From contig NZ_CYSB01000010.1 in assembly GCF_001458255.1 (NCBI RefSeq), positions 62,001-126,000 of the forward strand: DNA of 64,000 nt, given 5' to 3'. This document shows, piece by piece, positions 34,422-48,980 of this stretch. The position numbers and the translations under genes were made by a program. Under the pieces are notes generated by a model. That model was not told the origin of the DNA. It searched no databases and saw only the letters and a program-made list of their open reading frames with translations. Within the stretch, counting starts at the first letter, position 1, and every line of letters begins with the position of its first letter. Source of the stretch: Thalassovita autumnalis. GTDB taxonomy: Bacteria; Pseudomonadota; Alphaproteobacteria; Rhodobacterales; Rhodobacteraceae.

Positions 34422-34826
34422 ATGGCCAAAGGGGAATGCAATTGCGGCGCGGTCCGGTTTGAGATCACGTCCGAGATCCGCGATGTCTACATGTGCCACT
34501 GTTCCATCTGTCGCCGTATGACCGGCGGCGCAGGGGTGCCGGTGGTCGTGGTCCCGAATGAGGATTTCCGCTGGCTGTCAGGGCAAGACAACATCGCCAC
34601 CTGGAAAAAGCCAGACGTCGATTGGCAGGGCTGGTTCTGCCGCACCTGTGGTTCGCCTTTGCCGGGCGACAATGATCCGGCGCGCACCTATGTGCCTGTG
34701 GGCGTGCTGACCGAAGGCGCCGAGGCTCTGGAGGTGAAACATCACATCTGGGTTGGCTCCAAGGCGCATTGGGATGTGATTGGGGACGCGGGCAAACAAC
34801 ACCCCGAGGCCTTTGGCACTGGCTGA
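34422..34826 (+). CDS. GFA-family zinc protein (glutathione-dependent formaldehyde-activating-like)
   Basis: The 134-residue protein has the three cysteine clusters of the GFA/CENP-V fold: CNCGAV, CHCSICRRMTG and CRTCGSPL. These bind zinc. Some members adduct glutathione to formaldehyde, but most are uncharacterised. GGGAG precedes the ATG at 34422; an in-frame start at 34284 runs through the hairpin region. It is convergent with the formate dehydrogenase operon, which makes a C1-related role tempting but unproven. Confidence 0.85.
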   Translation: MAKGECNCGAVRFEITSEIRDVYMCHCSICRRMTGGAGVPVVVVPNEDFRWLSGQDNIATWKKPDVDWQGWFCRTCGSPLPGDNDPARTYVPVGVLTEGAEALEVKHHIWVGSKAHWDVIGDAGKQHPEAFGTG

Positions 34827-34849
34827 GTGGCTCAGGCTGAAAAGGGGCA

Positions 34850-34920
34850 GGGGGCGTTGCCCCCTCCGTTCAAAAGGGTTTTGAACGTCACCCCCAGAGT
34901 ATTTGTGAAACGATGAAAAG
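34850..34920 (+). repeat. Structured dispersed element, copy 1
   Basis: Hairpin one is GGGGGC-GTT-GCCCCC. Hairpin two is CGTTCAAAA-GGG-TTTTGAACG. They are followed by the tail CCCCCAGAGTATTTGTGAAA and CGATGAAAAG. A second copy at 45594-45654 has the same order with a different second stem, and the tail recurs at 48946. It lies between the GFA stop and the fdsD stop. Confidence 0.6.
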
Positions 34921-34922
34921 CG

Positions 34923-35147
34923 TCAGTCGATCTCAACTGGTTTGCGGATCTGCGGCGCGGCTTTCAGCACCAGCGGTTTCAATCCTTGGCCGCCGGCGGC
35001 GATAATTTCGGACAGTTGATCGCGCATCCGTGGCTCCCAGAAGTCACTGATATGGGCAGCCACACCTTCGATGCCTTCAGCTTCTTTTTTGCTTTCGAAA
35101 AAGGTGGCGATCTGGTTCGCCATATAGATCAGTTTTTCCGGTTTCAT
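34923..35147 (-). CDS. fdsD: Formate dehydrogenase delta subunit FdsD
   Basis: A 74-residue protein matching the small FdsD/DUF family (MANQIATFFESK, AAHISDFWEPRMRDQL). FdsD and FdhD are needed to make active FdsABG in Rhodobacter-type enzymes. It overlaps the fdhD stop by 4 nt and ends the operon. Confidence 0.92.
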   Translation of the reverse strand: MKPEKLIYMANQIATFFESKKEAEGIEGVAAHISDFWEPRMRDQLSEIIAAGGQGLKPLVLKAAPQIRKPVEID

Positions 35148-35953
35148 TGCGGTTCTCCGCTGTGGATGCGGTGGGTGTGGGTGAAGACGTCAAAGCGGGT
35201 GCCGCGGGCGCGGGTCACCAGGGTGAGCCCGGCCTGATCAGCCAGATCCACCCCCAAGGCGGTGGGGGCGGAGACCGCGATCAGCACTGGCGCGCCGATC
35301 TGGGCGGTCTTCTGGATCATCTCAGACGACAGGCGGCTGGTGACGGTGATGGCACCGGTGCTGGCGTCGATCCCGGCAAGGGCCAGGGCGCCTGCCAGCT
35401 TGTCCAATGCATTGTGGCGGCCTACATCCTCGCGCACGAGGATCAGCCCGTCGCCGGGGCGATAAAACCCGGCCGCGTGGGCGGCATGGGTTTCGTCATG
35501 CAGCGGCTGTTGCTGGCGCATGGCTGTGGTGGCCAGATGGATGTCCTGACGGCGCAGCCGCAGGTTGGCGGTGACACGCGGCAGGGCGCGCATCGCCTGT
35601 TCTAGGCTTTCCACCCCGCAAAGGCCGCAGCCCACAGGACCAGCCAGCGCACGGCGGCGCTTGGCCATTGCGGCGGCACGCTCCTCGGGCAGCCACATCT
35701 GCAGCTCCACGCCTTGGGCGTGGCGGATCACCTCCACCTCACCCAGCTCATCGGCACTGTCGACCAGCCCTTCGGTCAGGGAAAACCCAACGGCAAAGTC
35801 GATCAGGTCCGCAGGCGAGCCCATCATCACCGCCAGCGTGGTGCCATTATAGACCAGCGCAATCGGCATCTCCTCGGCCAGCGCGGTGGTCTGGTCGCTG
35901 AGGCCCAGAGGCCCGGCCGTCAGGCCCGGTTTATCAACCGCCGCCCGCATCAC
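35144..35953 (-). CDS. fdhD: Formate dehydrogenase accessory sulfurtransferase FdhD
   Basis: The 269-residue FdhD passes sulfur from the IscS-type desulfurase to the molybdenum cofactor of formate dehydrogenase. The conserved cysteine pair is in VGCGLCGVESLE, and VREDVGRHNALDKL is the second family block. It overlaps fdsA and fdsD by 4 nt on each side, so it is made with its target enzyme. Confidence 0.95.
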   Translation of the reverse strand: MMRAAVDKPGLTAGPLGLSDQTTALAEEMPIALVYNGTTLAVMMGSPADLIDFAVGFSLTEGLVDSADELGEVEVIRHAQGVELQMWLPEERAAAMAKRRRALAGPVGCGLCGVESLEQAMRALPRVTANLRLRRQDIHLATTAMRQQQPLHDETHAAHAAGFYRPGDGLILVREDVGRHNALDKLAGALALAGIDASTGAITVTSRLSSEMIQKTAQIGAPVLIAVSAPTALGVDLADQAGLTLVTRARGTRFDVFTHTHRIHSGEPQ

Positions 35954-38832
35954 TCGGCCGCCGGCAGGATGCGGCGCGATTTCTCGGCCTGGGCGTTATA
36001 ATCTTCCTGCCAGTCGCTGGGACCGTTTGACAGGCTGACCTGCACTGCGGTGACCTTGTATTCCGGACAGTTGGTGGCCCAGTCGGAGTAATCCGTGGTG
36101 ATCACATTGGCCTGCGTATCGGGGTGGTGGAAGGTGGTATAGACCACGCCGGTGCTGACCCGATCGGTAATCTTGGCCCGCAGCGTGGTTTCGCCCGAAC
36201 GCGAGGCCAGCTTCAGCCAGTCGCCATCCTTGATGCCGCGCACTTCGGCGTCATGGGCGTGGATCTCCAGCTCATCCTGATCGTGCCAGACCACGTTCTC
36301 CGTCCGCCGGGTCTGCGCGCCCACGTTATACTGCGACAGGATGCGGCCGGTGGTCAGCAGCAGTGGGAAGCGTGGGCCGGTTTTCTCATCCGTGGCGACA
36401 TATTCGGTGACGATGAAGCGGCCTTTGCCCCGGACAAACCCATCGACATGCATCAAAGGCGTGCCTTCGGGGTTGGCCTCATTGCAGGGCCACTGGATCG
36501 AGCCTTTCTCCTCCAGCATGGCGTAGTCCACACCGGCGAAGCTGGGGGTGGTGGCGGCAATTTCGTCCATGATCTGGCTGGGGTGGGTGTAGTGCCAGTC
36601 TGCCCCCATCGCCTGCGCCAGCAGCTGCGTCACCTCCCAGTCGGCATAGCCGTTTTTCGGCGCCATTACCTTGCGCACGCGGTTGATGCGGCGTTCGGCA
36701 TTGGTGAAGGTGCCGTCCTTTTCCAGGAAGGTCGAACCGGGCAGGAAGACATGCGCGTAGTTGGCAGTTTCATTGAGGAAGAGGTCATGCACGATGACAC
36801 ATTCCATTGCCGCCAGACCAGCTGCTACGTGTTTGGTGTCGGGGTCTGATTGCAGGATGTCCTCACCCTGACAGTAAAGGCCCTTGAAGGTGCCATCGAC
36901 CGCCGCGTCCAGCATGTTGGGGATGCGCAGACCAGGTTCGGGATCGATGGTGACACCCCAGGCGTCTTCGAAAATGGCGCGGACTTCCGGGCCTTTCACA
37001 TGGCGATAGCCCGGCAGTTCATGCGGGAAGCTGCCCATATCGCAGGAGCCCTGCACGTTGTTCTGACCCCGCAGCGGGTTCACCCCCACACCGCGCCGGC
37101 CGATGTTGCCGGTCAGCATGGCCAGGTTGGCGATGCCGATCACGGTGGTGGAGCCCTGCGAATGTTCGGTCACCCCCAGCCCGTAGTAGATTGCACCGTT
37201 GCCACCGGTGGCAAACAGACGCGCGGCCGCGCGCAGTTCGGCCGCTGGCACGCCGGTCAGCAGTTCGACGGCTTCGGGGCTGTGACGCGGATCGCTGACA
37301 AATTCGGCGTATTCCTGGAACTCTTCCCAGTCACACCGCTCCTGGATGAAGGCCTGATCCATCAGCCCTTCGGTCACGATCACATGGGCCAGCGCGGTCA
37401 CAACCGCCACATTGGTGCCGGGGCGCAGGGCAAGGTGATGCTGCGCCTCAATGTGGTTCGAGCGCACCAGATCGGTGCGGCGCGGGTCCACCACAATCAG
37501 CTTGGCGCCCTGACGCAGACGTTTCTTCAACCGGCTGGCAAATACCGGATGCCCGTCGGTCGGGTTGGCGCCGATCACGATCACCACATCGGTGTCTTCG
37601 ACACTGTCGAAATCCTGGGTTCCTGCCGAGGTGCCAAAGGTCTGCCCCAGCCCGTAGCCGGTGGGCGAATGGCAGACACGGGCGCAGGTGTCGGTGTTGT
37701 TGTTCATGAACACGCCACGCGCCAGTTTCTGCACCAGGAAGGTTTCCTCATTGGTGCAACGGCTGGAGGTGATCACCCCGATAGAGCGGCGGCCATGTTG
37801 TTCCTGCAGCCCTTTCAGACGGTTGGCCGCAAAGCTCAGCGCCTCGTCCCAGCTGACCTCTTGCCACGGCTCATCGATCGAGTCGCGGATCATCGGGTTC
37901 AGGATGCGGTCTTTGTGGTTGGCATAGCCATAGGCAAAACGGCCCTTCACGCAGGAATGGCCACGGTTCGCCTTGCCGTGTTTGTAGGGCACCATACGCA
38001 CCAGTTCGTCACCGCGCATCTCCGCCTTGAAGGAACAGCCGACGCCGCAATAGGCGCAGGTGGTGACCACGGATTTGTCCGGTGTGCCCAGCTCGATCAC
38101 GGATTTTTCCTGCAGGGTTGCGGTGGGGCAGGCCTGCACACAGGCGCCACAGCTGACGCAATCGGACCCCAGGAAATCATCCCCCGCCATCCCGGCGGAG
38201 ACACGGCTGTCAAAACCACGGCCTTCGATGGTCAGCGCAAAAGTGCCCTGCACCTCTTCGCAGGCGCGCACGCAGCGCGAACAGACGATGCATTTGGAAG
38301 GATCATAGGTGAAATAGGGGTTGCTGTCGTCTTTGGGCAGCCACTGCGGGTTTTCTTCGCCGCTGGTGTTGCGGGCCTCGAAATGGGTCTCTTTGGCCTC
38401 ATAACGCACATCGCGCAGGCCCACGGCCCCGGCTGCATCTTGCAATTCACAGTCGCCGTTGGCGGCGCAGGTCAGGCAGTCCAGCGGGTGGTCCGAGATG
38501 TAAAGCTCCATCACGCCTTTGCGCAGCTTCTGCACCTTCTCGGTCTGAGTTTTCACCACCATGCCTTCGCTGACCGGCGTGGTGCAGGAGGCCGGGGTGC
38601 CCCGGCGGCCCTCAATCTCCACCAGACACAGGCGGCAGGAGCCAAACGCTTCAACCGAGTCGGTGGCGCAAAGCTTGGGGATCTTGATCCCCGCCTCCAT
38701 CGAGGCCCGCATGACCGAGGTGCCTTCGGGGACCGAAACCTCAAAGCCATCCACGATGAGCGAGACCATATTGGTGGATTTCGACGCGGGCGTGCCCATG
38801 TCGTAATCGTCGGGCATCATGAAATCTTTCAT
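35950..38832 (-). CDS. fdsA: NAD-dependent formate dehydrogenase alpha subunit (molybdenum)
   Basis: The 960-residue catalytic subunit has a [2Fe-2S] ferredoxin domain (C55, C66, C69, C83), a His-Cys3 site (H115, C119, C122, C128), two [4Fe-4S] groups (from C181 and C225), and the bis-MGD domain with its own cluster (C259, C262, C266, C294). The active-site pair is C387-H388 in NTDTCARVCHSPTG, so it is a cysteine rather than selenocysteine enzyme. It oxidises formate to CO2 and feeds electrons to FdsBG. It overlaps fdsB and fdhD by 4 nt. Confidence 0.96.
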   Translation of the reverse strand: MKDFMMPDDYDMGTPASKSTNMVSLIVDGFEVSVPEGTSVMRASMEAGIKIPKLCATDSVEAFGSCRLCLVEIEGRRGTPASCTTPVSEGMVVKTQTEKVQKLRKGVMELYISDHPLDCLTCAANGDCELQDAAGAVGLRDVRYEAKETHFEARNTSGEENPQWLPKDDSNPYFTYDPSKCIVCSRCVRACEEVQGTFALTIEGRGFDSRVSAGMAGDDFLGSDCVSCGACVQACPTATLQEKSVIELGTPDKSVVTTCAYCGVGCSFKAEMRGDELVRMVPYKHGKANRGHSCVKGRFAYGYANHKDRILNPMIRDSIDEPWQEVSWDEALSFAANRLKGLQEQHGRRSIGVITSSRCTNEETFLVQKLARGVFMNNNTDTCARVCHSPTGYGLGQTFGTSAGTQDFDSVEDTDVVIVIGANPTDGHPVFASRLKKRLRQGAKLIVVDPRRTDLVRSNHIEAQHHLALRPGTNVAVVTALAHVIVTEGLMDQAFIQERCDWEEFQEYAEFVSDPRHSPEAVELLTGVPAAELRAAARLFATGGNGAIYYGLGVTEHSQGSTTVIGIANLAMLTGNIGRRGVGVNPLRGQNNVQGSCDMGSFPHELPGYRHVKGPEVRAIFEDAWGVTIDPEPGLRIPNMLDAAVDGTFKGLYCQGEDILQSDPDTKHVAAGLAAMECVIVHDLFLNETANYAHVFLPGSTFLEKDGTFTNAERRINRVRKVMAPKNGYADWEVTQLLAQAMGADWHYTHPSQIMDEIAATTPSFAGVDYAMLEEKGSIQWPCNEANPEGTPLMHVDGFVRGKGRFIVTEYVATDEKTGPRFPLLLTTGRILSQYNVGAQTRRTENVVWHDQDELEIHAHDAEVRGIKDGDWLKLASRSGETTLRAKITDRVSTGVVYTTFHHPDTQANVITTDYSDWATNCPEYKVTAVQVSLSNGPSDWQEDYNAQAEKSRRILPAAE

Positions 38833-40355
38833 TCTGCGGCCTCCTTCGCGGGGGTGAATTCTTCGGGGAATTGTTCAAGGGCGGACATGACGGGGAAGGG
38901 GGTGAAGCCCCCCAGCGCGCAGAGTGATCCCTCTTTCATCGTGTCACACAGGTCGGTCAGCAGCTCCACCGCGGCGCTGTCACCGGCTTTGATCCGGTCG
39001 ATGGTTTCCACACCGCGCACCGCGCCAATCCGGCAGGGGGTGCATTTGCCGCAGCTTTCCACCGCGCAGAACTCCATCGCGAACCGCGCCATGCCCAGCA
39101 TGTCGGCGCTGTCATCAAAAACCACAATACCGGCGTGACCGATCAGCGCGTCCTCGGCGGTGAATTCCTCATAGCCAAAGAGCGTGTCGAACTTGGCTGG
39201 CGCCAGATAGGCGCCTAAGGGGCCACCGACCTGCACCGCCTTGACCGGACGGCCCGTCGCGGTGCCACCGGCGATGTCGTTGATCAGATCCCCCAGCGGC
39301 ATGCCAAAAGCGGTTTCAAACAGCCCGCCAAACTTGACGTTGCCCGCGATCTGGATCGGCATGGTGCCGCGCGACCGGCCAAGGCCGAAGTCCGCGTAAT
39401 GCTGCGCGCCTTTTTCCAGAATGACCGGCACGGTGGCCAGCGAGATCACGTTGTTGACCACGGTGGGTTTGCCCAGAAACCCCTCAAGCGCGGGCAAGGG
39501 CGGTTTGGCCCGCACGATGCCGCGCTTACCTTCCAGCGAGTTCAGCAGCGAGGTTTCCTCACCACAGACATAGGCCCCCGCACCCACGCGGATTTCCATG
39601 TCGAAGGCTTTGCCTGATCCCAACAGATCCGCGCCCAGCAGACCGTTCAGCCGCGCGATGCGCACCGCCTCATTCATCACACGGATGGCAACGGGATATT
39701 CCGAACGCAGGTAGACATAGCCCTTGGTCGCCCCAACGGCGAGGCCGGCAATCGCCATGCCTTCGATCAGGGTGAAGGGGTCCCCTTCCATGATCATCCG
39801 GTCGGCAAAGGTGCCGCTGTCGCCTTCATCGGCGTTGCAGATGATGTATTTCTGATCCGCCTCAGCGCCCAGAACCGTGTTCCATTTGATGCCCGTCGGG
39901 AAGCCCGCGCCGCCCCGGCCCCGCAGGCCCGAGTCGGTGACTTCCTGAACCACATCGGCAGGCGTCATCGCCAGCGCGCGGCGCAGACCGGTCAGACCGC
40001 CATGCGCCTCATAATCCGCAATCGACAGCGGATCGATCACGCCGCACCGGGCAAAGGTCAGGCGGGTCTGGCGCGCCAGATAGGGGATCTCCTCCACCGG
40101 ACCCAGCGCCTTGGCGTGGCCCTCAAGATCGTCAAACAGAAACGGCACATCGGCGGTCTCCATCGGGCCGAAGCCGATGCGGCCCGCCTCGGTCTCAACC
40201 TCGACCAGCGGTTCCAGCCAGACCATGCCACGGGTGCCGTTGCGGATCAGTTCCACAGGGATGTCGCGGGCTTTGGCTTCTGCCACGATCGCTGCGGCAA
40301 CCTCATCTGCGCCAACCGCAACGGCGGCGGTGTCGAGGGGCACGTAGATCTTCAT
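38829..40355 (-). CDS. fdsB: Formate dehydrogenase beta subunit (NuoF-like)
   Basis: This 508-residue subunit binds FMN, NAD+ and a [4Fe-4S] cluster. Motifs: GLRGRGGAGFPTGIKW (FMN/NAD), GAYVCGEETSLLNSLEGKRG (NAD), and ESCGKCTPCRIG plus a later Cys (cluster). A roughly 150-residue N-terminal extension of the thioredoxin-like type precedes the NuoF core. It hands electrons from FdsA clusters to NAD+. It overlaps both neighbours by 4 nt. Confidence 0.95.
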   Translation of the reverse strand: MKIYVPLDTAAVAVGADEVAAAIVAEAKARDIPVELIRNGTRGMVWLEPLVEVETEAGRIGFGPMETADVPFLFDDLEGHAKALGPVEEIPYLARQTRLTFARCGVIDPLSIADYEAHGGLTGLRRALAMTPADVVQEVTDSGLRGRGGAGFPTGIKWNTVLGAEADQKYIICNADEGDSGTFADRMIMEGDPFTLIEGMAIAGLAVGATKGYVYLRSEYPVAIRVMNEAVRIARLNGLLGADLLGSGKAFDMEIRVGAGAYVCGEETSLLNSLEGKRGIVRAKPPLPALEGFLGKPTVVNNVISLATVPVILEKGAQHYADFGLGRSRGTMPIQIAGNVKFGGLFETAFGMPLGDLINDIAGGTATGRPVKAVQVGGPLGAYLAPAKFDTLFGYEEFTAEDALIGHAGIVVFDDSADMLGMARFAMEFCAVESCGKCTPCRIGAVRGVETIDRIKAGDSAAVELLTDLCDTMKEGSLCALGGFTPFPVMSALEQFPEEFTPAKEAAE

Positions 40356-40831
40356 GCGCTTGCCTCCGCCAGTAGGGTTTCCAGCTTCTCTGCGGTCAGC
40401 CGGCCATGCAGCGTGTCATCCACCATCGCAGCCGGACCTGAGGCACAGAGGCCCAGGCAATAGACCGGTTCAATCGTCACCGCCCCGTCCTTTGAGGTGC
40501 CGTGCCATTCCAGCCCCAGCTTTTGCAGCGCGTCATCGGCCATCTGGTTCACACCCATGGCCTGACAGGCCTCGGCGCGGCAGATTTTCACCACATGGCG
40601 GCCCGCAGGCAGGTCGCGGAAATCGTGGTAGAAGCTGACAACGCCATGCACCTCGGCGCGGCCGATGTTCAGGTGATCCGCGATGACCGGCACCGCAGCA
40701 GCGGGGATATGGTCGAATTCTTCCTGCACTGCATGCAGGATCGGCAGCAGCGGTCCTTCCAGCCCAACATGCTGGGCGAGGATATTGTGCAGCGCCTCGG
40801 CTTGAGTATCGGCAAGCAATGCATCTGGCAT
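40352..40831 (-). CDS. fdsG: Formate dehydrogenase gamma subunit (NuoE-like)
   Basis: The 159-residue protein is a thioredoxin-fold [2Fe-2S] subunit of the NuoE type. Cluster ligands are in CRAEACQAMG and YCLGLCASGPA. It sits first among the structural genes, with fdsB overlapping its stop by 4 nt. The 92-nt gap from the LysR gene likely contains the operon promoter. Confidence 0.94.
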   Translation of the reverse strand: MPDALLADTQAEALHNILAQHVGLEGPLLPILHAVQEEFDHIPAAAVPVIADHLNIGRAEVHGVVSFYHDFRDLPAGRHVVKICRAEACQAMGVNQMADDALQKLGLEWHGTSKDGAVTIEPVYCLGLCASGPAAMVDDTLHGRLTAEKLETLLAEASA

Positions 40832-40923
40832 CGCAGGGCCCTCCCTAACAGTAACTTACCACGATTTGGGTGATTTTTACATCACCGATCAATATCGAAA
40901 TTTCGTTACTTGATAGAAATTGA

Positions 40924-41832
40924 CTATCGTTGACCCAACCGTTCCGAAAGCGACATGGCAGAGTCGAGAAGCGCCGTCAGCACCGGCGCATGGGGTTCGC
41001 GGTGTGGCGCAATAAGCCCAATTCGATGGCTGGCTTCGGGGCTGACCAGCGGAACGGCCACCAATCCGCCGTCAGGTGATTCGTTTTGCAGGAAGATTTC
41101 GGTGCTTTTCTGCGGCAGGATCGACGCCCATCCGCCGCTCATCACATGGGAAATCAACACGATCAGGGAGGAGGCTTCGATCTGCGGCTGCGTTTCCACC
41201 CCGGCGGTGCTGAGATGGGTGTTGATGATACGGCGGTTCTGCATGTCCGGGGTCAGCAGGCACAGCGGCAGCTCTGCCAGTTCGGCCCATTTCACCTGCG
41301 CCCGGCTGGCCAGCGGGTGATCGCGCCGCAGCATCAGCACATAGCGTTCGGCATGGATCGGCACCGTGGTCACCCGGCCCAGCGGTTCATTGTCCAGATA
41401 GGTCAGCCCGGCATCGATCTGCAAATTGTCCAGCATCGACAGGATCTCACCCGAGGTGCGCGACCAGATGGTCAGCCGCACATTTGGATGGGCACGAGCA
41501 AAATCCGCCGTCAGGTCAGACACCAGCGTCAGCGCGGTCGGGATCACCGCCAGCCGCAGATTGCCGGAAAGCCCCTGCCGCGCGGTGCGCATCTCTTCTT
41601 TCATGGTGCGCACATCGCCCACGATCTGGCGCGCCCAGTCCAAAACCCGTTGCCCTTCAGGCGTCAGCCCCTGAAACCGCGATCCCCGATGCACCAGCAC
41701 CACGCCCAGCTGTTCCTCCAGCTGCTTGATGGCGGCCGAAAGGCTGGGCTGGGTGACCCGGCAGGCCTCCGCCGCGCGGCCAAAGTGCTGCTCACGGGCG
41801 AGGGCGATGAACATTTCCAACTTGTCGATCAT
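40924..41832 (-). CDS. LysR-family regulator upstream of the formate dehydrogenase operon
   Basis: This 302-residue LysR protein starts MIDKLEMFIALAREQHFGRA, with HTH segment VTQPSLSAAIKQLEEQLG. The ATG at 41832 is chosen from the family start; a longer frame to 41931 is unlikely. It reads in the same direction as fdsG, 92 nt upstream, so it may both precede and regulate the fds genes. The effector is likely formate or a related C1 signal by context. Confidence 0.85.
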   Translation of the reverse strand: MIDKLEMFIALAREQHFGRAAEACRVTQPSLSAAIKQLEEQLGVVLVHRGSRFQGLTPEGQRVLDWARQIVGDVRTMKEEMRTARQGLSGNLRLAVIPTALTLVSDLTADFARAHPNVRLTIWSRTSGEILSMLDNLQIDAGLTYLDNEPLGRVTTVPIHAERYVLMLRRDHPLASRAQVKWAELAELPLCLLTPDMQNRRIINTHLSTAGVETQPQIEASSLIVLISHVMSGGWASILPQKSTEIFLQNESPDGGLVAVPLVSPEASHRIGLIAPHREPHAPVLTALLDSAMSLSERLGQR

Positions 41833-41997
41833 CCGGCGACTATTGCGCGTCCCTGCGGAAAACGGAACCGGGGGGGCAGCAATTCCTTTGGCCCGACTCT
41901 CGGTGATGGATGCAAGCCAAGTGACGGCCAAGTGACGGGGCGAAACAATTTACAGCCTTTCGCGTGCCGTGTTCCCTGACCGCAGGGAGGAACCGAA

Positions 41998-42609
41998 ATG
42001 AGCAAAGTGTTGTATGAACGCGTCGGCCGCATCGCGCGGATCACCTTGAACCGGCCTGAGGTGATGAAACCGGTGATCTGCAAGGTGCACGGGTTTGCGG
42101 TTGCCGGGGGTTCGGACATCGCGCTCTGCGCAGATCTGACCATCATGGCGGAGGAGGCGCAGATCGGCTACATGCCCGCCCGCGTCTGGGGGTGCCCGAC
42201 CACCGCGATGTGGGTCTATCGTCTGGGGCCGGAACGGGCCAAGCGGATGCTGTTCACCGGTGACAAGATCACCGGGCGTGAGGCTGCGGATATGGGGCTG
42301 GTGCTGAACGCCGTGCCCGCCGCGGATCTGGACGCTGAGGTTGAGGCGATGGCCGAACGGATGGCGGCGGTTCCGATCAATCAGCTGGCGATGCAGAAGA
42401 TGGTGATCAATCAAGCGATGGAGCAGACCATGCAGGCCACGCAACGTCTGGCCACCGTGTTTGACGGTATCACCCGCCATTCGCCCGAAGGGTTGAACTT
42501 CAAACAGCGGGCTGAGGCGGTGGGCTGGAAACAGGCGGTGTCGGAACGCGACAGCGGCACCTGGGATTGGACGGCAAACGGCCCGTTGCCCGGCGCGAAC
42601 CGCCCGTAA
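41998..42609 (+). CDS. Crotonase-family protein with a large internal deletion
   Basis: The 203-residue frame starts as a normal enoyl-CoA hydratase/isomerase (VLYERVGRIARITLNRPEVM) and then jumps to KPVICKVHGFAVAGGSDIAL, which belongs after the first oxyanion-hole region. Family members run about 280-290 residues, so roughly 80 are missing, including the A-G-x-D oxyanion segment. The second motif AGGSD, the GYMPARVWGCPT loop and the C-terminus remain. The join reads GTGATGAAACC, and a short repeat around ATGAA may have caused it. Probably inactive as a crotonase. Confidence 0.8.
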   Translation: MSKVLYERVGRIARITLNRPEVMKPVICKVHGFAVAGGSDIALCADLTIMAEEAQIGYMPARVWGCPTTAMWVYRLGPERAKRMLFTGDKITGREAADMGLVLNAVPAADLDAEVEAMAERMAAVPINQLAMQKMVINQAMEQTMQATQRLATVFDGITRHSPEGLNFKQRAEAVGWKQAVSERDSGTWDWTANGPLPGANRP

Positions 42610-42632
42610 CCACTAGACCTTGATTGCAAAAG

Positions 42633-42666
42633 AAAAGCCGCCCGGCAGACAGCGCGGGCGGCTTTT
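42633..42666. terminator. Bidirectional terminator between the crotonase gene and accA
   Basis: AAAAGCCGCCC (42633-42643) pairs with GGGCGGCTTTT (42656-42666) around a 12-nt loop, between convergent genes. Confidence 0.9.
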
Positions 42667-42686
42667 AATCTAACTCATTTATAGGC

Positions 42687-43649
42687 TTAGGCAGCCAGGC
42701 CCTTGCTGCCCATATCGAGGAACTTCTGGCGGCGGTCTTTGACCAGCTGCTCCGGCGACTGGCCGGCCAGCTCATCCAGCATTGACTGGATGTGTTCGCC
42801 AACCGCTTTGATCGAGGCACCGGCATCGCGATGTGCGCCGCCCAGCGGTTCGTCGATCACCCGGTCGGTCACGCCCAGCTTGGTCAGGTCCTGCGCGGTT
42901 AGACGCAGCGCCTCAGCGGCTTCGCGCATCTTGTCGGCGTTCTTCCACAGGATCGAGGCACAGCCCTCAGGCGTGATCACCGAATAGACCGAATGTTCCA
43001 TCATCGCGACGCGGTTTGCCGTGGCAAAGGCCACCGCCCCGCCCGAGCCACCTTCGCCAACGATCACCGAAATCAGCGGCACGCCGATCTGCAGGCATTT
43101 TTCTGTCGAACGGGCGATGGCTTCGGACTGGCCGCGCTCTTCCGCGCCTTTGCCGGGATAGGCACCGGGGGTGTCCACCAGGGTGATCACCGGCAGGCCA
43201 AACTTGTCTGCCATTTCCATCAGACGCACGGCTTTGCGGTAGCCCTCGGGGCGCGCCATGCCAAAGTTGCGGTCGATTCGGCTTTTGGTGTCATTGCCTT
43301 TTTCGTGGCCGATCACCATCACCGGGGTGTCGCCGAAACGCGCCAGGCCGCCCATGACGGCGTGATCATCGGCAAAGTTCCGGTCACCCGCCAGCGGCGT
43401 GTATTCGGTGAACAGCGCGTCGATGTAATCTTGGCAATGCGGCCGGTCGGGATGCCGTGCCACCTGGCATTTGCGCCACGGTGTCAGGGTCTTATACAGT
43501 TCGGCCAGCATTTCGGACGCTTTTTTGTCCAAAGCAGCAGCTTCTTCTTCGACGTCCATTTCCTCGTTCTGGCGGGCCATCGCACGCAGCTCTTCGGCTT
43601 TGCCTTCGATCTCGGCAAGGGGGCGTTCAAAGTCGAGGTAGTTGGTCAT
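42687..43649 (-). CDS. accA: Acetyl-CoA carboxylase carboxyltransferase subunit alpha
   Basis: A 320-residue enzyme subunit that, with AccD, moves the carboxyl group from biotin to acetyl-CoA in fatty-acid synthesis. It has the N-terminal coiled region ([17 protein letters not shown]), the glycine-rich [10 protein letters not shown] loop and [12 protein letters not shown]. Length matches AccA. accD is not in this window. Confidence 0.96.
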
Positions 43650-43754
43650 TTTATGTCAGTCTCCAGCCTTGGATGGCAGGTTATATGGCGCTGCCTGCGC
43701 TCAGATGCAACAACGCATGTGACCTAAGGGGAGGGGCAGGCGTATTTTCCCCAA

Positions 43755-44372
43755 TCAAATCGCGCCAGAGAGCGCCGCTCGCAGCGCCAATTCAGGCGAG
43801 GTCAAAACAGGGCAGGGCAGGTCTTGCAATGCCGCTGCCGCCCCCGCCATGGAGGCCTGCGCCAGAACGATGGCGCTATACTGCCCTTGCCCGGCCACAT
43901 GCCGGATATCCTGGCTAAGCGCCGTGGCAAATCCCTGCAAATCACCAGTCTCGAACAGCGGCCAATGTTGACCCAGAAACAGCGGCGCGGCTGGGGTCAT
44001 GTTGCCCTCGGCCTGCAACTCCCGCTCAAGCAGCGACAGGCTGGGCGCCTCGGTTGAGCGCAGGCAATAGACGATCAGCACCCGCCCCCCGGTTTGTGCG
44101 GCGGTGCGCATCATCGGCTGATCGATGCGAATGGCGCCAAACGCCTCAGCGATCGGGCCCAGGCTGGTGCAGCTGCACAAAACAGCCCCCTCCGCGGCGT
44201 CAATCGCCGCGCCAACCTCATCGCGCAGTGCCTCACTGATCCCGGCCTGCGCCTGCGCCAGCCAATCGGGACGCACCAGATGGGTCAGCGCAGCCTCCGG
44301 CGCCAACTGCTCGCGCAGAGTATTAAAGGTCAGGCGGTGCACATCGGCAGTGTGGATCAGGGTCAGTGTCAT
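43755..44372 (-). CDS. Asp/Glu racemase-fold protein with one catalytic-type cysteine
   Basis: The 205-residue protein has the VLCSCTSLGPIAEAF motif (C66, C68) expected around the first catalytic Cys of the Asp/Glu/hydantoin racemase superfamily. The second site, where racemases have a Cys, reads IVLAQASMAGAA with none. Single-Cys members include decarboxylases and isomerases such as arylmalonate decarboxylase and maleate isomerase, so racemase activity is unlikely. Start at 44372 is the MTLTLIHTADVH form. Specific function unknown. Confidence 0.7.
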   Translation of the reverse strand: MTLTLIHTADVHRLTFNTLREQLAPEAALTHLVRPDWLAQAQAGISEALRDEVGAAIDAAEGAVLCSCTSLGPIAEAFGAIRIDQPMMRTAAQTGGRVLIVYCLRSTEAPSLSLLERELQAEGNMTPAAPLFLGQHWPLFETGDLQGFATALSQDIRHVAGQGQYSAIVLAQASMAGAAAALQDLPCPVLTSPELALRAALSGAI

Positions 44373-44442
44373 GAAACAGAGATTAGGCTCAGAACCCATT
44401 AATGTTCCAGCACCGGTGCGGAAAAATTATTGATTTCTGAGC

Positions 44443-45030
44443 CTAGAGAACCGGCAGGAGCGACGCCACCAGCAACACGGCCATAAAGATATTGAACGCT
44501 CGCAGCCGTTGCGGTGAGGACAGTACACGGCTCATCTGCTGGCCCAGCGCCGTCCAGCTGCTGACCGAAGGCAGGTTCACCGCGCCGAAAATCGCCGCCA
44601 CCATCAGGATCGAAAACACCGTGCGTTCCGGCGCATAAAGGGTGATCGCGGTCAGCGCCATCTGCCAGGCCTTGGGGTTCACCCATTGAAACGCCGCTGC
44701 CTGCAGAAAGGTCATCGGCGTGCCGGTGCTTCCGCTGGTATCCGGCATGCCCGCATTGGCAATCTTCCACGCCAACCACAACAGATAGGCGATCCCGGCA
44801 ACCTTCAACACCGTGTGGGTTACTGGAAAGGCATCAAACAGACCCATCAGCCCAACCCCGACAAGGGCCACCATCAGAACAAACCCCAGCGCCACCCCCA
44901 GCATATGCGGAATGGTGCGCCGGAACCCGTAATTGGCGCCTGAGGCCATCAGCATCAGGTTGTTCGGGCCAGGGGTGATGGAGGTCACAAAGGCAAAAGC
45001 GGCGAGGGCGGTGAGCAGGTCGTAAGTCAT
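44443..45030 (-). CDS. LysE-family amino-acid exporter
   Basis: This 195-residue membrane protein has six hydrophobic segments and the LysE/RhtB signature FVTSITPGPNNLMLMASG followed by GFRRTIPHMLG. It exports amino acids or related compounds. The ATG at 45030 is preferred to a longer frame that would cover the divergent promoter. It is divergent from an Lrp-type regulator, the classic LysE/LysG-like pairing. Confidence 0.9.
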   Translation of the reverse strand: MTYDLLTALAAFAFVTSITPGPNNLMLMASGANYGFRRTIPHMLGVALGFVLMVALVGVGLMGLFDAFPVTHTVLKVAGIAYLLWLAWKIANAGMPDTSGSTGTPMTFLQAAAFQWVNPKAWQMALTAITLYAPERTVFSILMVAAIFGAVNLPSVSSWTALGQQMSRVLSSPQRLRAFNIFMAVLLVASLLPVL

Positions 45031-45102
45031 TGGGCAAGAATATGCTGTTCTTGCTGCATTGAAATTGCAATGTTGGGCGTGGATACGCAGATGAGACAAT
45101 AA

Positions 45103-45555
45103 ATGGCGAAGATAGATCAAATCAACGACAGGATATTGCAGGAATTGTCGCGTGACGGTCGGATTTCCAACCTGGAACTGGCGGATCGGGTGGGCCTGTC
45201 GCCCTCGGCCTGCCTGCGCCGGGTGCAGGAGCTGGAGCGTTCAGGCGTCATTCAGGGCTATCGCGCGGTGATCAACCCGGCGGCGCGGGATGTTGGCTTT
45301 GTGGCCTATATGACGGTGGGGCTGGGGCTGCACACCAAATCCGCGCAGGAGGCTTTTGAGCGCTCCATTGCTCTGGCTCCGGAAGTGCGCGAATGCCACA
45401 ACATTACGGGCACGGTCGAGTATCTCTTGCGGGTCGAGGCGCGGGATCTGGCGGACTACAAGCGGTTCCATACCGATATCTTGGGCACCTTGGATCAGGT
45501 CAATTCGATCACCACCTTTGTTGTCATGGGCTCCCCCAAGGATGAACGGGCGTGA
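45103..45555 (+). CDS. Lrp/AsnC-family regulator divergent from the LysE exporter
   Basis: A 150-residue regulator: HTH in the first 60 residues (NDRILQELSRDGRISNLELA) and a RAM ligand-binding domain ending TFVVMGSPKDERA. It sits 72 nt from the divergent exporter gene and likely controls it in response to an amino acid. It is followed by a dispersed structured element (45594-45654). Confidence 0.92.
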   Translation: MAKIDQINDRILQELSRDGRISNLELADRVGLSPSACLRRVQELERSGVIQGYRAVINPAARDVGFVAYMTVGLGLHTKSAQEAFERSIALAPEVRECHNITGTVEYLLRVEARDLADYKRFHTDILGTLDQVNSITTFVVMGSPKDERA

Positions 45556-45593
45556 TCTGCGGGGGGTGACGGGGGCGGTTCGGTTGGCGGAAT

Positions 45594-45654
45594 GGGGCGC
45601 TGCCCCCTTGGCCTGCGGCCAATTCCCCCGGAGTATTCGGGAAACAGTGAAAAA
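45594..45654 (+). repeat. Structured dispersed element, copy 2
   Basis: Hairpin one GGGGC-GCT-GCCCC, hairpin two TTGGCC-TGC-GGCCAA, then tail CCCCCGGAGTATTCGGGAAA and CAGTGAAAAA. Order, loop sizes and tail match the copy at 34850-34920, while the stem bases of hairpin two are different yet still fully paired. Confidence 0.6.
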
Positions 45655-45730
45655 TGCAGCATCTGCAGGTCAGCAAGACTTGTTCATCCGGGCTGGGGCA
45701 CATCTGCCCTGCGAAATGAAAGAGGGCGTT

Positions 45731-46567
45731 ATGGCTGGAAGCTACGAAGACCGGATCCTGCGGGTGGTGAAATATATCCACGACCATCCGGCGGGGGATC
45801 TGTCGCTGGACCGGCTGGCCGATGTGGCGGCGATGTCGCGGTTTCACTGGCATCGGGTGTTTCATGCGATGATGGGGGAAACCTGCGCCGAGATGGTGCG
45901 CCGGGTGCGGCTGCATCAGGCTGCGCTGCGGCTGGTGCAGGGCACCGATCCGGTGGCCGAGGTTGCCACCCAGGTGGGCTATCCCACACCGCAAAGCTTT
46001 GGTCGCGCCTTTCGGGCGGCCTATGGGCTGACGCCTCTGGCGTTTCGCAAGCAAGGGGTGCCGCTGGTGGCGCTCCGGCAGATGAAACCTGAGGAGTTTA
46101 AAGTGTTTGATGTAAAAATTGAGGAGCGTGGCGCGTTGCGTCTGGCAGGCTGGGAACATCAGGGATCCTATATGGGGATCGGTGCCAAGTTTGAGGAACT
46201 GGCGGCCTTGGCCACGGCGCGGGGCCTGTGGGAGAAGACCTGCGGCATGGCGGGGATCTACTGTGGCGATCCAACCGAAATGCCTGAGGAGCAGCTGCGC
46301 AGCTTTGCCGCGCTGATCCTGCGCGACGGTCAGGATCTGCCCGAAGGTCTGGAAGAACGCGGCTACGCTGCCGGTCGGGTGGCGGTGCTGGTCTTCAAAG
46401 GTCCCTATTCCAGCATGGCAGAGGCCTATCAGTATCTTTACGGCCGCTGGTTGCCGGAAAGCGGTGAAGAGGCCGCCGATGCCGCGCCCTATGAGGTCTA
46501 TCTGAATTCACCCGCCGACACCCCGGCGGAGGAGTTGCTGACCCAGCTCTGTGTGCTGTTGAAGTAA
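45731..46567 (+). CDS. AraC-family regulator with GyrI-like effector domain
   Basis: The 278-residue protein has two N-terminal AraC helix-turn-helix motifs (residues about 8-105; LSLDRLADVAAMSRFHWHRVF and VATQVGYPTPQSFGRAFRAAYG cut at their ends) and a C-terminal GyrI-like small-molecule binding domain, as in Rob or SbmC-linked regulators. The ATG at 45731 follows AGAGGG; an in-frame ATG at 45716 has no site. Likely controls efflux or stress genes, target unknown. Confidence 0.88.
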   Translation: MAGSYEDRILRVVKYIHDHPAGDLSLDRLADVAAMSRFHWHRVFHAMMGETCAEMVRRVRLHQAALRLVQGTDPVAEVATQVGYPTPQSFGRAFRAAYGLTPLAFRKQGVPLVALRQMKPEEFKVFDVKIEERGALRLAGWEHQGSYMGIGAKFEELAALATARGLWEKTCGMAGIYCGDPTEMPEEQLRSFAALILRDGQDLPEGLEERGYAAGRVAVLVFKGPYSSMAEAYQYLYGRWLPESGEEAADAAPYEVYLNSPADTPAEELLTQLCVLLK

Positions 46568-46590
46568 AGCGAAACGCGGTTCAGAAATGC

Positions 46591-46620
46591 AAAAGGGCGC
46601 CGGGTGTCGGCGCCCTTCTT
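46591..46620. terminator. Bidirectional terminator between the AraC gene and mcl1
   Basis: AAAAGGGCGCCG and CGGCGCCCTT form a stem around GGTGT, flanked by A- and T-rich ends, between convergent genes. Confidence 0.88.
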
Positions 46621-46649
46621 GGTGTTGGGGATAGCGTATTGGGGATGGC

Positions 46650-47609
46650 TCAGCTGCCGGCGATCAGCTCGGCCTGGGCGACGATCACCTCGGCCTGTTT
46701 GATCGAGGCGATATCGACCAGACGGCCCTTGTAGACCGTGGCGCCTTCGCCGTTGGCCTTGGCCTGTTCCATCGCGGCAAGGATTTCGCGGGCTTCGGTC
46801 ACAGCGGCTTCAGACGGGGTGAAGACCTCATTGGCCAGTGCGATCTGTTTCGGGTGGATCGCCCATTTGCCGACCATGCCCAGAGTGGCCGAGCGTTTGG
46901 CCTGCGCGATGTAACCTTCGTCATCCGAGAAATCGCCAAACGGCCCGTCCACCGGCAGCACACCATGGGTGCGGCAGGCGGCAACAATGGCGGCCTGAGC
47001 CCAGTGCCAGGGGTCGGACCAGTGTTTCTGGCCTTCGTGCAGCATGTAGTAGTTTTCCTGCGTGCCACCGATGCCGGTGGTCTGCATGCCCATTGAGGCG
47101 GCGAAATCCGCGGCGCCCAGGCTCATCGCGGCCATCCGGGGGGAGGCGGCGGCAATCTCTTCAACATGGGCGATGCCGGCGGCGGATTCGATGATCACCT
47201 CAAAATCAATGCGCTTGGTGCGGCCCTTGGCGACCTCAATCGCGGTGACCAGTGCATCGACGGCGTAGATATCCGCAGCGCAGCCCACTTTCGGGATCAT
47301 GATCTGATCCAGCCGATCGCCGGCTTGTTCCAACAGATCCACCACATCGCGGTACCAATAGGGGGTGTCCAGCCCGTTGATCCGCACTGACAGGGTTTTG
47401 CTGCCCCAATCGATGGTGTTGATCGCCTCAATCGCATTGGCACGTGCCATGTCCTTGTCCGAGGGGGCCACCGAATCCTCAAGGTCGATGTTGATCACAT
47501 CCGCAGCCGACGCCGCCATCTTGGCAAACAGCTTGGTGTTGGAGGCCGGGCCAAACAGCTGGCAACGGTTGGGGCGTGCAGGGGCGGCTGGTTGCAGGCG
47601 GAAGCTCAT
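46650..47609 (-). CDS. mcl1: L-malyl-CoA/beta-methylmalyl-CoA lyase
   Basis: A 319-residue HpcH/CitE-family aldolase that closely follows the Rhodobacter Mcl1 pattern: SFRLQPAAPARPNRCQLFGP at the N-terminus, NIDLEDSVAP (metal site), SLGAADFAASMGMQTTGIGG, and GKWAIHPKQIALANEVF. In the ethylmalonyl-CoA pathway it cleaves beta-methylmalyl-CoA into glyoxylate and propionyl-CoA and makes malyl-CoA from acetyl-CoA and glyoxylate. It is divergent from dgcN across a 289-nt gap. Confidence 0.95.
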   Translation of the reverse strand: MSFRLQPAAPARPNRCQLFGPASNTKLFAKMAASAADVINIDLEDSVAPSDKDMARANAIEAINTIDWGSKTLSVRINGLDTPYWYRDVVDLLEQAGDRLDQIMIPKVGCAADIYAVDALVTAIEVAKGRTKRIDFEVIIESAAGIAHVEEIAAASPRMAAMSLGAADFAASMGMQTTGIGGTQENYYMLHEGQKHWSDPWHWAQAAIVAACRTHGVLPVDGPFGDFSDDEGYIAQAKRSATLGMVGKWAIHPKQIALANEVFTPSEAAVTEAREILAAMEQAKANGEGATVYKGRLVDIASIKQAEVIVAQAELIAGS

Positions 47610-47701
47610 TGGGCGATTCCTCTGGGTAACGAAATTGCAGATTTTTCACCTTGAGGGTTATTAAATTGCGCCCCTGTTCGCAAGGATATTTTGCACCTGC
47701 G

Positions 47702-47731
47702 GCATCGCGCCTGCAGAGAAACCCGCGATGC
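47702..47731. promoter_or_regulatory. Inverted repeat in the mcl1/dgcN divergent region
   Basis: GCATCGCG (47702-47709) and CGCGATGC (47724-47731) are perfect inverted arms with a 14-nt spacer. CTTCGAAG and an AT-rich stretch follow nearer dgcN. The rest of the 289-nt gap holds no gene. An operator for one or both genes is plausible. Confidence 0.4.
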
Positions 47732-47898
47732 GGTGATTAATTCGCAGGCAGAATGTAAACTTCGAAGAATTTTCGAGTGATCGGCCAAAATTCAGAGGTT
47801 TCTCCCAATGACGCAGGGTGCCCAGCTGCAATCGCGAAGACACTCCCGGTACGAATCCATCACACTGCGCCAGCTAAAAGAAATGAAAGGCCGATACG

Positions 47899-48900
47899 AT
47901 GATCAAGACCCCCTATCTGCTGTTTTTGGGTGACGCCCCGGACCAACTGGCTGCAAAAGTGGCCCAAGGTATCAAGGACTGGCGTCCTGAATTTGCTGTA
48001 GGCCAGTATCGGATGGACGGCTGCAAGGCCGACATGGGCCTGCCCGACATGACCCTGGAAGAGGCCAAAGCGGCGGGCGCCAAAACCCTGGTGATCGGCG
48101 TGGCCAACCGCGGCGGCGTGATCAGCCAGGCCTGGAAAAAGGTTCTGGTCACCGCGCTGGAAGAGGGTTTTGATCTGGCCTCCGGCCTGCACAACCTGCT
48201 GAAAGACGAAGAAGACCTGGTTGCCGTGGCCAAAGCCACCGGTCAGGAACTGCACGACGTGCGCGTGCCTGAGGTCGACTATCCGATCGCCAACGGCAAA
48301 AAACGCACCGGCAAACGTCTGCTGGCGGTGGGCACCGACTGTTCGGTGGGCAAGATGTACACTGCCCTGTGCATGGAAAAGGAAATGCGTGAGCGCGGCA
48401 TGAAAGCCTCGTTCCGCGCCACCGGCCAGACTGGCATCCTGATCACCGGCGACGGTGTGCCGCTGGACGCGGTAATTGCTGACTTTATGGCGGGTTCGAT
48501 CGAATACATCACCCCCAACAATGACACCGATCACTGGGACATCATCGAAGGTCAGGGCAGCCTGTTCCACGTCTCCTACTCGGGCGTGACCATGGCACTG
48601 ATCCACGGCGGTCAGCCAGATGCGCTGGTGGTCTGCCATGAGCCGACCCGCGATCACATGCGTGGTCTGCCGGATTACCAGCTGCCGTCGCTTGAAGCGG
48701 TGCGCGATATGGCGCTGTCGCTGGCCAAAGTGGCCAACCCGGACTGTCAGGTTGTGGGCTATTCGATCAACACCCAGAACATGCCCGAGGATGAAGCCAA
48801 GGCCTATTGTGCCAAGGTTGAAGCCGAGCTGGGCCTGCCGGCAACCGACCCGTTCCGCTTTGGCGCGGGCAAGCTGGTCGACGCGCTGGACGCGATCTGA
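47899..48900 (+). CDS. dgcN: DUF1611 protein, likely D-glutamate N-acetyltransferase DgcN
   Basis: This 333-residue DUF1611 protein has a P-loop-like segment GTDCSVGKMYTALCMEKEM and the family stretch RATGQTGILITGDGVPLDA. In marine Pseudoalteromonas, DgcN acetylates D-glutamate and the enolase-superfamily DgcA racemises the product; the gene directly downstream here is a DgcA-type protein. AAAGG precedes the ATG by 8 nt. Identity is by family and context, and activity on D-Glu is inferred. Confidence 0.82.
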   Translation: MIKTPYLLFLGDAPDQLAAKVAQGIKDWRPEFAVGQYRMDGCKADMGLPDMTLEEAKAAGAKTLVIGVANRGGVISQAWKKVLVTALEEGFDLASGLHNLLKDEEDLVAVAKATGQELHDVRVPEVDYPIANGKKRTGKRLLAVGTDCSVGKMYTALCMEKEMRERGMKASFRATGQTGILITGDGVPLDAVIADFMAGSIEYITPNNDTDHWDIIEGQGSLFHVSYSGVTMALIHGGQPDALVVCHEPTRDHMRGLPDYQLPSLEAVRDMALSLAKVANPDCQVVGYSINTQNMPEDEAKAYCAKVEAELGLPATDPFRFGAGKLVDALDAI

Positions 48901-48913
48901 TCTAACAGCCTTG

Positions 48914-48968
48914 AAGGCCGGAGCGGACGACCCCTCCGGCCTTTTGAGTATTTAAGGAACATTGAAAG
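48914..48968 (+). terminator. Terminator hairpin joined to the dispersed tail motif
   Basis: AAGGCCGGAG pairs with CTCCGGCCTTTT (48934-48945) to make a good intrinsic terminator after dgcN. It is followed at once by GAGTATTTAAGGAACATTGA and AAGG, the same tail seen in the two structured elements. It separates dgcN from dgcA, so read-through may set their ratio. Confidence 0.75.
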
Positions 48969-48980
48969 GGGAGGGGCGGC

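Follow-up and report, generated by a model that had tools for sequence, protein, structure and literature searches.

Bacterial genomes can carry many short, palindromic intergenic copies of REP or BIME sequences, sometimes in inverted pairs; a REP element has a hairpin foot of the GTAG type and an associated RAYT transposase. The DNA uptake sequences of Neisseria and Haemophilus occur as inverted pairs that serve as terminators between convergent genes. Triple helices at RNA 3' ends, in which U-rich loops clamp an A tract, are known from MALAT1, MEN-beta and the PAN ENE. The put RNA of phage HK022 consists of two stem-loops and is reported to form a minor-groove triplex through a third strand located just 3' of its first stem; it contacts RNA polymerase and suppresses pausing and termination early in phage transcription (PMC9378689). 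HRC-8-4, a motif reported only from Rhodobacterales, has a terminator-like stem with conserved tip nucleotides followed by a U run, and is found mainly between ccoNOQP and ccoGHIS (PMC8632094).

The window, i.e., the whole 64-kb stretch of DNA analysed here, is part of a 4.36-Mb draft genome (the source genome hereafter). Two copies of a short structured element and a third copy of its tail are found in it, with the following features:

34849..34865, plus strand: copy 1, hairpin 1, AGGGGGC-GTT-GCCCCCT; the middle base of the loop is T at 34857
34867..34887, plus strand: copy 1, hairpin 2, an optional insert, CGTTCAAAA-GGG-TTTTGAACG
34891..34896, plus strand: copy 1, predicted third strand CCCCC and pairing base A (34896), the partner of the loop T (34857)
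34897..34920, plus strand: copy 1, conserved tail, GAGTATTT-GTGAAACGATGAAAAG, with GAGTATTT reaching to 34904 and GTGAAACGATGAAAAG at 34905-34920
45594..45606, plus strand: copy 2, hairpin 1, GGGGC-GCT-GCCCC; the middle base of the loop is C at 45600
45608..45622, plus strand: copy 2, hairpin 2, TTGGCC-TGC-GGCCAA, an insert type repeated in the source genome
45625..45630, plus strand: copy 2, predicted third strand CCCCC and pairing base G (45630), the partner of the loop C (45600)
45631..45653, plus strand: copy 2, tail, GAGTATTC-GGGAAACAGTGAAAA, differing from the core by one base and ending at about 45653
48913..48944, plus strand: third copy, head, an ordinary GC hairpin with a CCTTTT end, 3' of a gene ending at 48900
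48946..48969, plus strand: third copy, tail, GAGTATTTAAGGAACATTGAAAGG, a pattern match to the GAGTATTT-type tail

A preliminary description had reported two similar sites with a common order of hairpin, hairpin and tail, each behind a plus-strand gene. Reading of the sequence bears this out: copy 1 lies 22 nt past the stop codon of gene 34422-34826 and copy 2 38 nt past that of gene 45103-45555, gene coordinates being those of a simple gene caller trained on the sequence analysed. The observation is thereby confirmed, but it understates the structure. Both hairpins are real, but the pair between loop and tail, the mirrored third strand, the dispensability of hairpin 2 and the existence of other heads were overlooked, as was the third tail copy at 48913-48969 with its different head.

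Within the window, folding energy taken alone is weak evidence (z of -2.1 for copy 1 and -0.5 for copy 2), and a loose tail core allowing two mismatches is without enrichment (21 found vs 34.7 expected). Intrinsic terminators have a U-rich tract within 0-2 nt of the stem; a terminator scan of the plus strand from 34500 to 49500 detected neither copy 1 nor copy 2, nor the head of the third copy, which on reading consists of a stem and a U-rich tract. A match to a known Rfam family, which the preliminary description said would make the element not new, was also discarded: in a search of the 64-kb window with Rfam 15, no family reached its gathering score, and the best of four sub-threshold matches around copy 1 scored 18.6 bits vs the 45 needed. 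The element appears to be undescribed so far, as no description of it came up in the literature searches, which included passages of PMC12306157, PMC7866481, PMC8632094, PMC5107571, PMC2864571, PMC6238624 and PMC9378689, and no map of mRNA ends in Rhodobacteraceae was found in the literature searched.

Genome-wide, the element is abundant. In the source genome, CCCNGAGTATTTNNNNAA with at most one mismatch gave 53 matches, vs 3 for the reversed pattern; an upstream hairpin of the form GGG(G)C-NNN-GCC(C)C accompanies 47 of these, the other 6 being without hairpin 1. The tail pattern AGTATTTN{4,6}ANNNTGAAA gave 93 exact matches vs none reversed. A hairpin-plus-tail pattern, GGGGCNNNGCCCCN{3,33}CCNNGNGTATTT, which leaves both covarying bases open, matched in 220 of 390 genomes and in 96 of the 139 genera of the order, with a single match for its reversed control among those listed (in genome G207). 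Few hits would have pointed to chance similarity according to the preliminary description; these pattern counts rule it out, the reversed controls giving 3, 1, 0 and 0 among the matches listed. Copy number differs strongly among relatives, and the highest among the genomes tabulated is 84, in the 2.8-Mb genome G250, where hairpins such as CCGAGGC-NNN-GCCTCGG stand directly before the C-tract.

Outside the family, one of 285 class genomes matched (289 were searched, 4 of them of Rhodobacteraceae). This lone match, G666:C48:100927-100955, is a single-hairpin copy and would reflect transfer or contamination. In a scan of named genomes that found 116 stretches, those of the 80 record titles listed that could be placed belong to Rhodobacteraceae sensu lato with two exceptions among the matches listed, a contig labelled Enemella and a MAG labelled only Alphaproteobacteria. 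The former (JAFKDC010000020.1, Enemella evansiae, an actinobacterial label) carries a full element and is probably a contaminating Rhodobacteraceae contig; alignment A2, used below, leaves this copy out. Judged by these patterns, both window copies are members of a dispersed Rhodobacteraceae family.

The middle base of the hairpin-1 triloop pairs with the base just before GAGTATTT, about 14-45 nt away in the sequence. All 47 copies of the source genome have this pair (27 T-A, 19 C-G, 1 G-C), and the mutual information of the two columns, 1.11 bits, is the highest among the column pairs listed for these copies. The triloop itself is varied (GCT, GTT, TTT, CTT, TCT, TCC, TGC and others), and its middle base still matches the base before GAG. 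In other genomes, 137 of 143 copies (one per locus and fitting the pattern, out of 146 loci) have a Watson-Crick pair at this place, the remainder being 3 T-G, 2 C-A and 1 G-G, while 5000 shuffles gave at most 117. Alignment A2, with 145 copies, shows a standard pair in 142 (121 C-G, 19 U-A and 2 U-G, with 3 unpaired). In a wider set, 7 of 189 copies depart from C-G or T-A: 3 T-G, 2 C-A, and loci L029 and L049, where the base before GAG is C and A, respectively, both pairing on reading.

Copies of one genome may be related by descent, which is why orthologous sites are important here. Genome G257 is 69-82% identical to the source genome at the DNA level in aligned blocks, and 14 of its loci have a partner there; with L211 and L227 left out, 12 were compared, of which 11 were comparable (L203 gave no match, L052 was read from the sequence, and L215 and L222 are among the pairs that align on one flank only). 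Five of the 11 differ between the two species, C-G being replaced by T-A or the reverse; six agree, and none is half-changed. In orthologues from the close relative G391, the middle loop base is unchanged and the first loop base has changed in several copies. At the copy-2 locus, four of eight genomes with the gene carry the element behind it, with a C-G pair in the source genome and G391 and a T-A pair in G005 and G056 (the tract of the latter is interrupted); there is no element in G257, G392, G223 and G390. In G390, an opposite-strand facing tail (CTTCTTTGCTCTTCAAATACTC) and the ordinary terminator of the convergent gene replace it behind the Lrp-type gene.

Just ahead of the pairing base lies a C-tract that mirrors the hairpin-1 3' arm. 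In copy 1, it has 5 nt, the length of the G-tract; across 143 copies, its length equals that of the 3'-arm C-tract in 119 (shuffles, at most 81), and in a larger tally in 168 of 198. By itself, a shared length might reflect competition for the G-tract. In the plasmid copy L342, a GAGG stem goes with a CTCC tract, the order expected for a third strand running parallel to the purine arm. This prediction was tested after L342 with the search GAGGCNNNGCCTCN{1,31}CNCCNGNNTATTT, in which the tested letter is open and its C neighbours are fixed; it matched in 73 of 390 genomes, with no reversed match among those listed. Of the 150 listed places with an internal A in the G-tract, 140 (46 genomes) have T at the parallel position, the exceptions among them being A in 5 (5 genomes) and C in 5 (3 genomes); flanking tract lengths are equal in 143 of 145. 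Since the fixed C neighbours make a direct-repeat tract (CCTC) invisible to this search, a 1.2-Mb sample from three element-carrying genomes is informative: none of its 9 GAGG hairpins has CCTC, 5 have CTCC, and the remaining 4, all from G250, look like inserts. Over the 49 hairpin-tail units of this sample, C stands opposite G at 177 of 181 positions.

An alternative hairpin, in which the 5' G-tract would pair antiparallel with the tail C-tract, was considered and rejected: it explains equal lengths for pure G/C tracts only, and leaves unexplained both the loop pair and the parallel-register T facing an A that is off centre. T opposite A and C opposite G-C, in parallel, is the code of a pyrimidine-motif triple helix (a parallel strand with C at G-C and U at A-U), found here as a sequence code, and the covariation supports the predicted structure well. 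The stem itself also covaries, its outer pair in the 145 copies being G-C in 106, A-U in 18, C-G in 10 and U-A in 3, with 8 unpaired. In insert-free copies, as read from the alignment, two bases past the 3' arm usually lengthen the stem and one more, mostly A, forms the turn.

Hairpin 2 is an optional, variable insert. It is missing in six loci of the source genome (L002, L003, L016, L017, L020 and L024) and in many copies elsewhere, and is highly variable where present. The preliminary description had read the change to TTGGCC/GGCCAA between the two window copies as compensating; both versions do pair, but the copies are non-orthologous, and the change by itself is therefore no proof of compensation. 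Its broader claim of a selected structure stands, with stems that covary and one orthologous case, the copy-2 site, where hairpin 2 is TTGGCC/GGCCAA in the source genome vs TGCGCC/GGCGCA in G005, with pairing retained. Insert types also recur: loci L005 and L008 of the source genome have one in common, the copy-1 insert is likewise found in L008, TTGGCC/GGCCAA recurs in the source genome, and GGTCGCC-TGC-GGCGCCC and similar ones do so in G257. Such recurrence within species shows that copies exchange or spread sequence.

The tail is not restricted to hairpin 1. The 93 tails of the source genome follow hairpin 1 in 36 cases, a short head in 20 and other sequence in 37. Immediately before GAG, 35 of the 37 other-headed tails have T, a base that none of the 56 tails behind the two triloop heads has at this place. 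The short head has the form GCCT-N-CGGCG-N'-GAGTATTT; the corresponding pattern, GCCTNCGGCGNGAGTATTT, was found in 187 of 390 genomes, with no reversed match among those listed, and 148 of the 150 listed places, counted by eye, have a complementary N and N' (135 C-G, 9 T-A, 3 G-C, 1 A-T). The N-N' relation of this GCCTNCGGCGN'GAG head is accounted for equally well by a plain stem CTNC/GN'(G)AG, which makes it supporting evidence only. Hairpin-1 heads are the only ones more structured than control gene ends (p 0.006); short heads are not (p 0.37), nor are the 44 nt upstream of the 37 other-headed tails (median z -0.27 vs -0.88, p 0.94). The conserved tail runs about 16 nt beyond GAGTATTT and is purine-rich; a pause site or a protein site would be guesses as to its role. 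A start-codon reading of ATG, TTG or GTG in the tail was considered and set aside.

Tails also face each other. Match coordinates reveal 7 tail-to-tail pairs with a spacing of 4 or 5 nt in the source genome (a narrower facing-tail criterion gave 2 of 93), and in other genomes 17 of 149 copies have AAATAC or AAATAT within 100 nt downstream, several partner tails being complementary copy by copy. At L145, L147, L182, L139, L060 and L079, the facing tails are inverted repeats whose sequence differs by pair while complementarity is kept, as in CCATCGAAT/ATTCGATGG at L147.

The element is found at the 3' ends of genes in the orientation of transcription, as expected of an intrinsic terminator. Among 46 intergenic hairpin-1 copies of the source genome, 40 lie behind a co-oriented gene (22 before another co-oriented gene, 18 between convergent genes), 28 of these with a gap of 10-50 nt between stop codon and hairpin; 6 are the opposite way round and none is in a divergent gap. 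The 93 tails are convergent in 38 cases, co-directional in 36, reversed in 15 (some being partners in facing pairs), divergent in 2 and inside gene calls in 2. Divergent gaps are nevertheless the largest single intergenic class in the window (2605 of 7366 bp). Co-directional gaps shorter than 60 nt contain the element in 1 of 44 cases among the loci of the source genome and in 0 of 23 in the window. As to polarity with respect to replication, the single contig of genome G391 has 20 forward and 21 reverse copies; 29 of 30 loci of G391 and, counted by eye, 14 of 30 of G257 have a BLAST partner among the element loci of the source genome. Plasmids with independent annotation gave 13 matches, of which 8 were examined: one is unannotated, 5 start 1-26 nt past a co-oriented stop codon and 2 do not fit. 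The 5 fitting copies include two same-locus pairs, one locus in two Leisingera and one in two Paracoccus plasmids (L337 and L338, about 1500-1560), where the copy lies between iolC and iolD, perhaps within an operon. Some copies, at L003, L015, L020, L030 and L049, stand 3' of an ordinary hairpin-plus-T terminator and can hence act only on read-through RNA; no mutual exclusion with ordinary terminators is visible, some flagged pairs being TATTT misread as a T-tract.

How does this compare with the systems described above? Like intrinsic terminators, the element has a GC hairpin at gene ends, is oriented with transcription and occurs on both strands between some convergent genes, and some tails follow a classical hairpin and T-tract (48913-48969 in the window); in contrast to them, its main form is without a U-tract directly after the hairpin and has a mirrored pyrimidine tract, a loop-to-tail pair and the conserved tail. 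It shares with HRC-8-4 the terminator-like stem with conserved tip nucleotides and the occurrence in Rhodobacterales, but is found behind a wide variety of genes, and its hairpin 1 is not followed by a run of U. Triple helix formation at an RNA 3' end, predicted here, would recall MALAT1, MEN-beta and the PAN ENE, whereas the predicted triplex lies within one hairpin, is C-rich and bacterial, and involves no A tract. Short intergenic copies that are numerous and sometimes in inverted pairs are reminiscent of REP and BIME, from which the element differs in being oriented behind genes and conserved in place; its alignment shows neither a conserved hairpin foot of the REP type nor conservation in columns 1-3, immediately 5' of the hairpin. 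DNA uptake sequences likewise form inverted pairs where convergent genes meet, but the element has about 100 copies here, 91 of 93 outside gene calls, mostly oriented and often with a structured head.

The family, its orientation and position, the loop-to-tail pair and the mirrored tract are thus apparent at the level of sequence; we infer from them that RNA is the active form, that the triples form in vivo and that the element brings about termination or another definition of the 3' end. With covariation on one strand, mostly pointing away from the gene, the working form would most simply be the transcript. The element probably helps to define message ends, and there is about an even chance that it does so as a cis-acting element of nascent RNA, as a terminator or a back-up to one, a function read from position alone. 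As the RNA leaves the polymerase, the purine-rich 5' arm would pair with its complement, leaving a loop of three bases. Beyond a short linker, or a second hairpin where one is inserted, the pyrimidine tract would fold back onto this stem as a third strand in parallel with the purine arm, C lying next to G-C and U next to A-U. Pairing of the following base with the middle of the loop would close the fold. As the fold would end at GAGUAUUU, the polymerase would by then have reached, or only just left, the A/U-rich stretch and the purine-rich tail, and the completed fold would stop it or mark the mRNA 3' end. The element would thereby serve as the main terminator or as a back-up, the latter behind ordinary terminators; between some convergent genes, each strand has a copy of its own. 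Against termination are the lack of a classical U-tract in hairpin-1 heads, the perhaps intra-operon placement between iolC and iolD, and the absence of the element from 4 of 8 genomes at the copy-2 locus. The further proposal that a natural, intramolecular, loop-closed RNA triple helix, present many times per genome across much of the family, serves as the mRNA 3'-end signal is put forward tentatively, with the odds slightly against it. Of the three functions that the preliminary description offered with no choice made, terminator, 3' stability element and protein-binding RNA, position favours the first two.

Other readings account for part of these data. RNase E prefers RN/WUU, with which GUAUU agrees, and the element could act in RNA processing and stability, RNase E cutting in GUAUUU and a triple-stranded hairpin halting 3'-5' exonucleases so that the mRNA end is protected. 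Folded third strands are apt to block 3'-5' decay, and the iolC-iolD placement fits processing better than termination; in R. sphaeroides, the surroundings of RNase E sites show AU enrichment, and a role of stable structure in stopping PNPase has been discussed, although no sequence motif was reported for PNPase-dependent ends there. Processing would leave unexplained the conservation of a purine-rich tail past the cut, the copies behind ordinary terminators and the near-constant spacing of tail-to-tail pairs, and we consider it unlikely. The 7 facing pairs at 4-5 nt, the copy-by-copy complementarity of several partner tails in other genomes and the retention of the tail behind quite different heads would suit a site in DNA, the tail (GAGTATTT-N3-5-GGAACATTGAAAGG in the source genome) binding a polar protein, or the top strand folding as DNA, as a roadblock to polymerase. 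This is, however, decidedly improbable, as orientation behind genes and one-strand covariation of stem, loop and third strand point to a transcribed single strand.

That insert types recur at several sites within one species and that copy number varies strongly among relatives would suit a spreading repeat of the REP or MITE type accumulating harmlessly behind genes, but many sites are conserved between species, with their sequence rewritten and pairing retained, and orientation is mostly fixed; we regard this explanation as very unlikely. Finally, the two stems of put RNA, its triplex third strand just after the first and its polymerase contact (PMC9378689) raise the idea of an RNA that binds RNA polymerase and alters pausing or read-through. 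The resemblance, drawn from description and not sequence, is offset by the minor-groove triplex of put and by its suppression of termination early in phage transcription, whereas the element sits at gene ends, which makes a put-like role extremely improbable.

Runs of C.G-C triples need protonated C and are unfavourable at neutral pH. Given its reliance on such triples, the fold of a 3'-end element as preferred here may respond to pH, which, if true, would couple the ends of transcripts to cellular state. Should the third strand form, the element would be a natural RNA triple helix of common occurrence, its code readable from the sequence, and one of the few bacterial cases apart from riboswitches and the phage put RNA; if true, it would be a bacterial counterpart of eukaryotic 3'-end triple helices. 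Rhodobacteraceae being a major marine family, an element found at so many of its gene ends matters for operon annotation and for genetic engineering.
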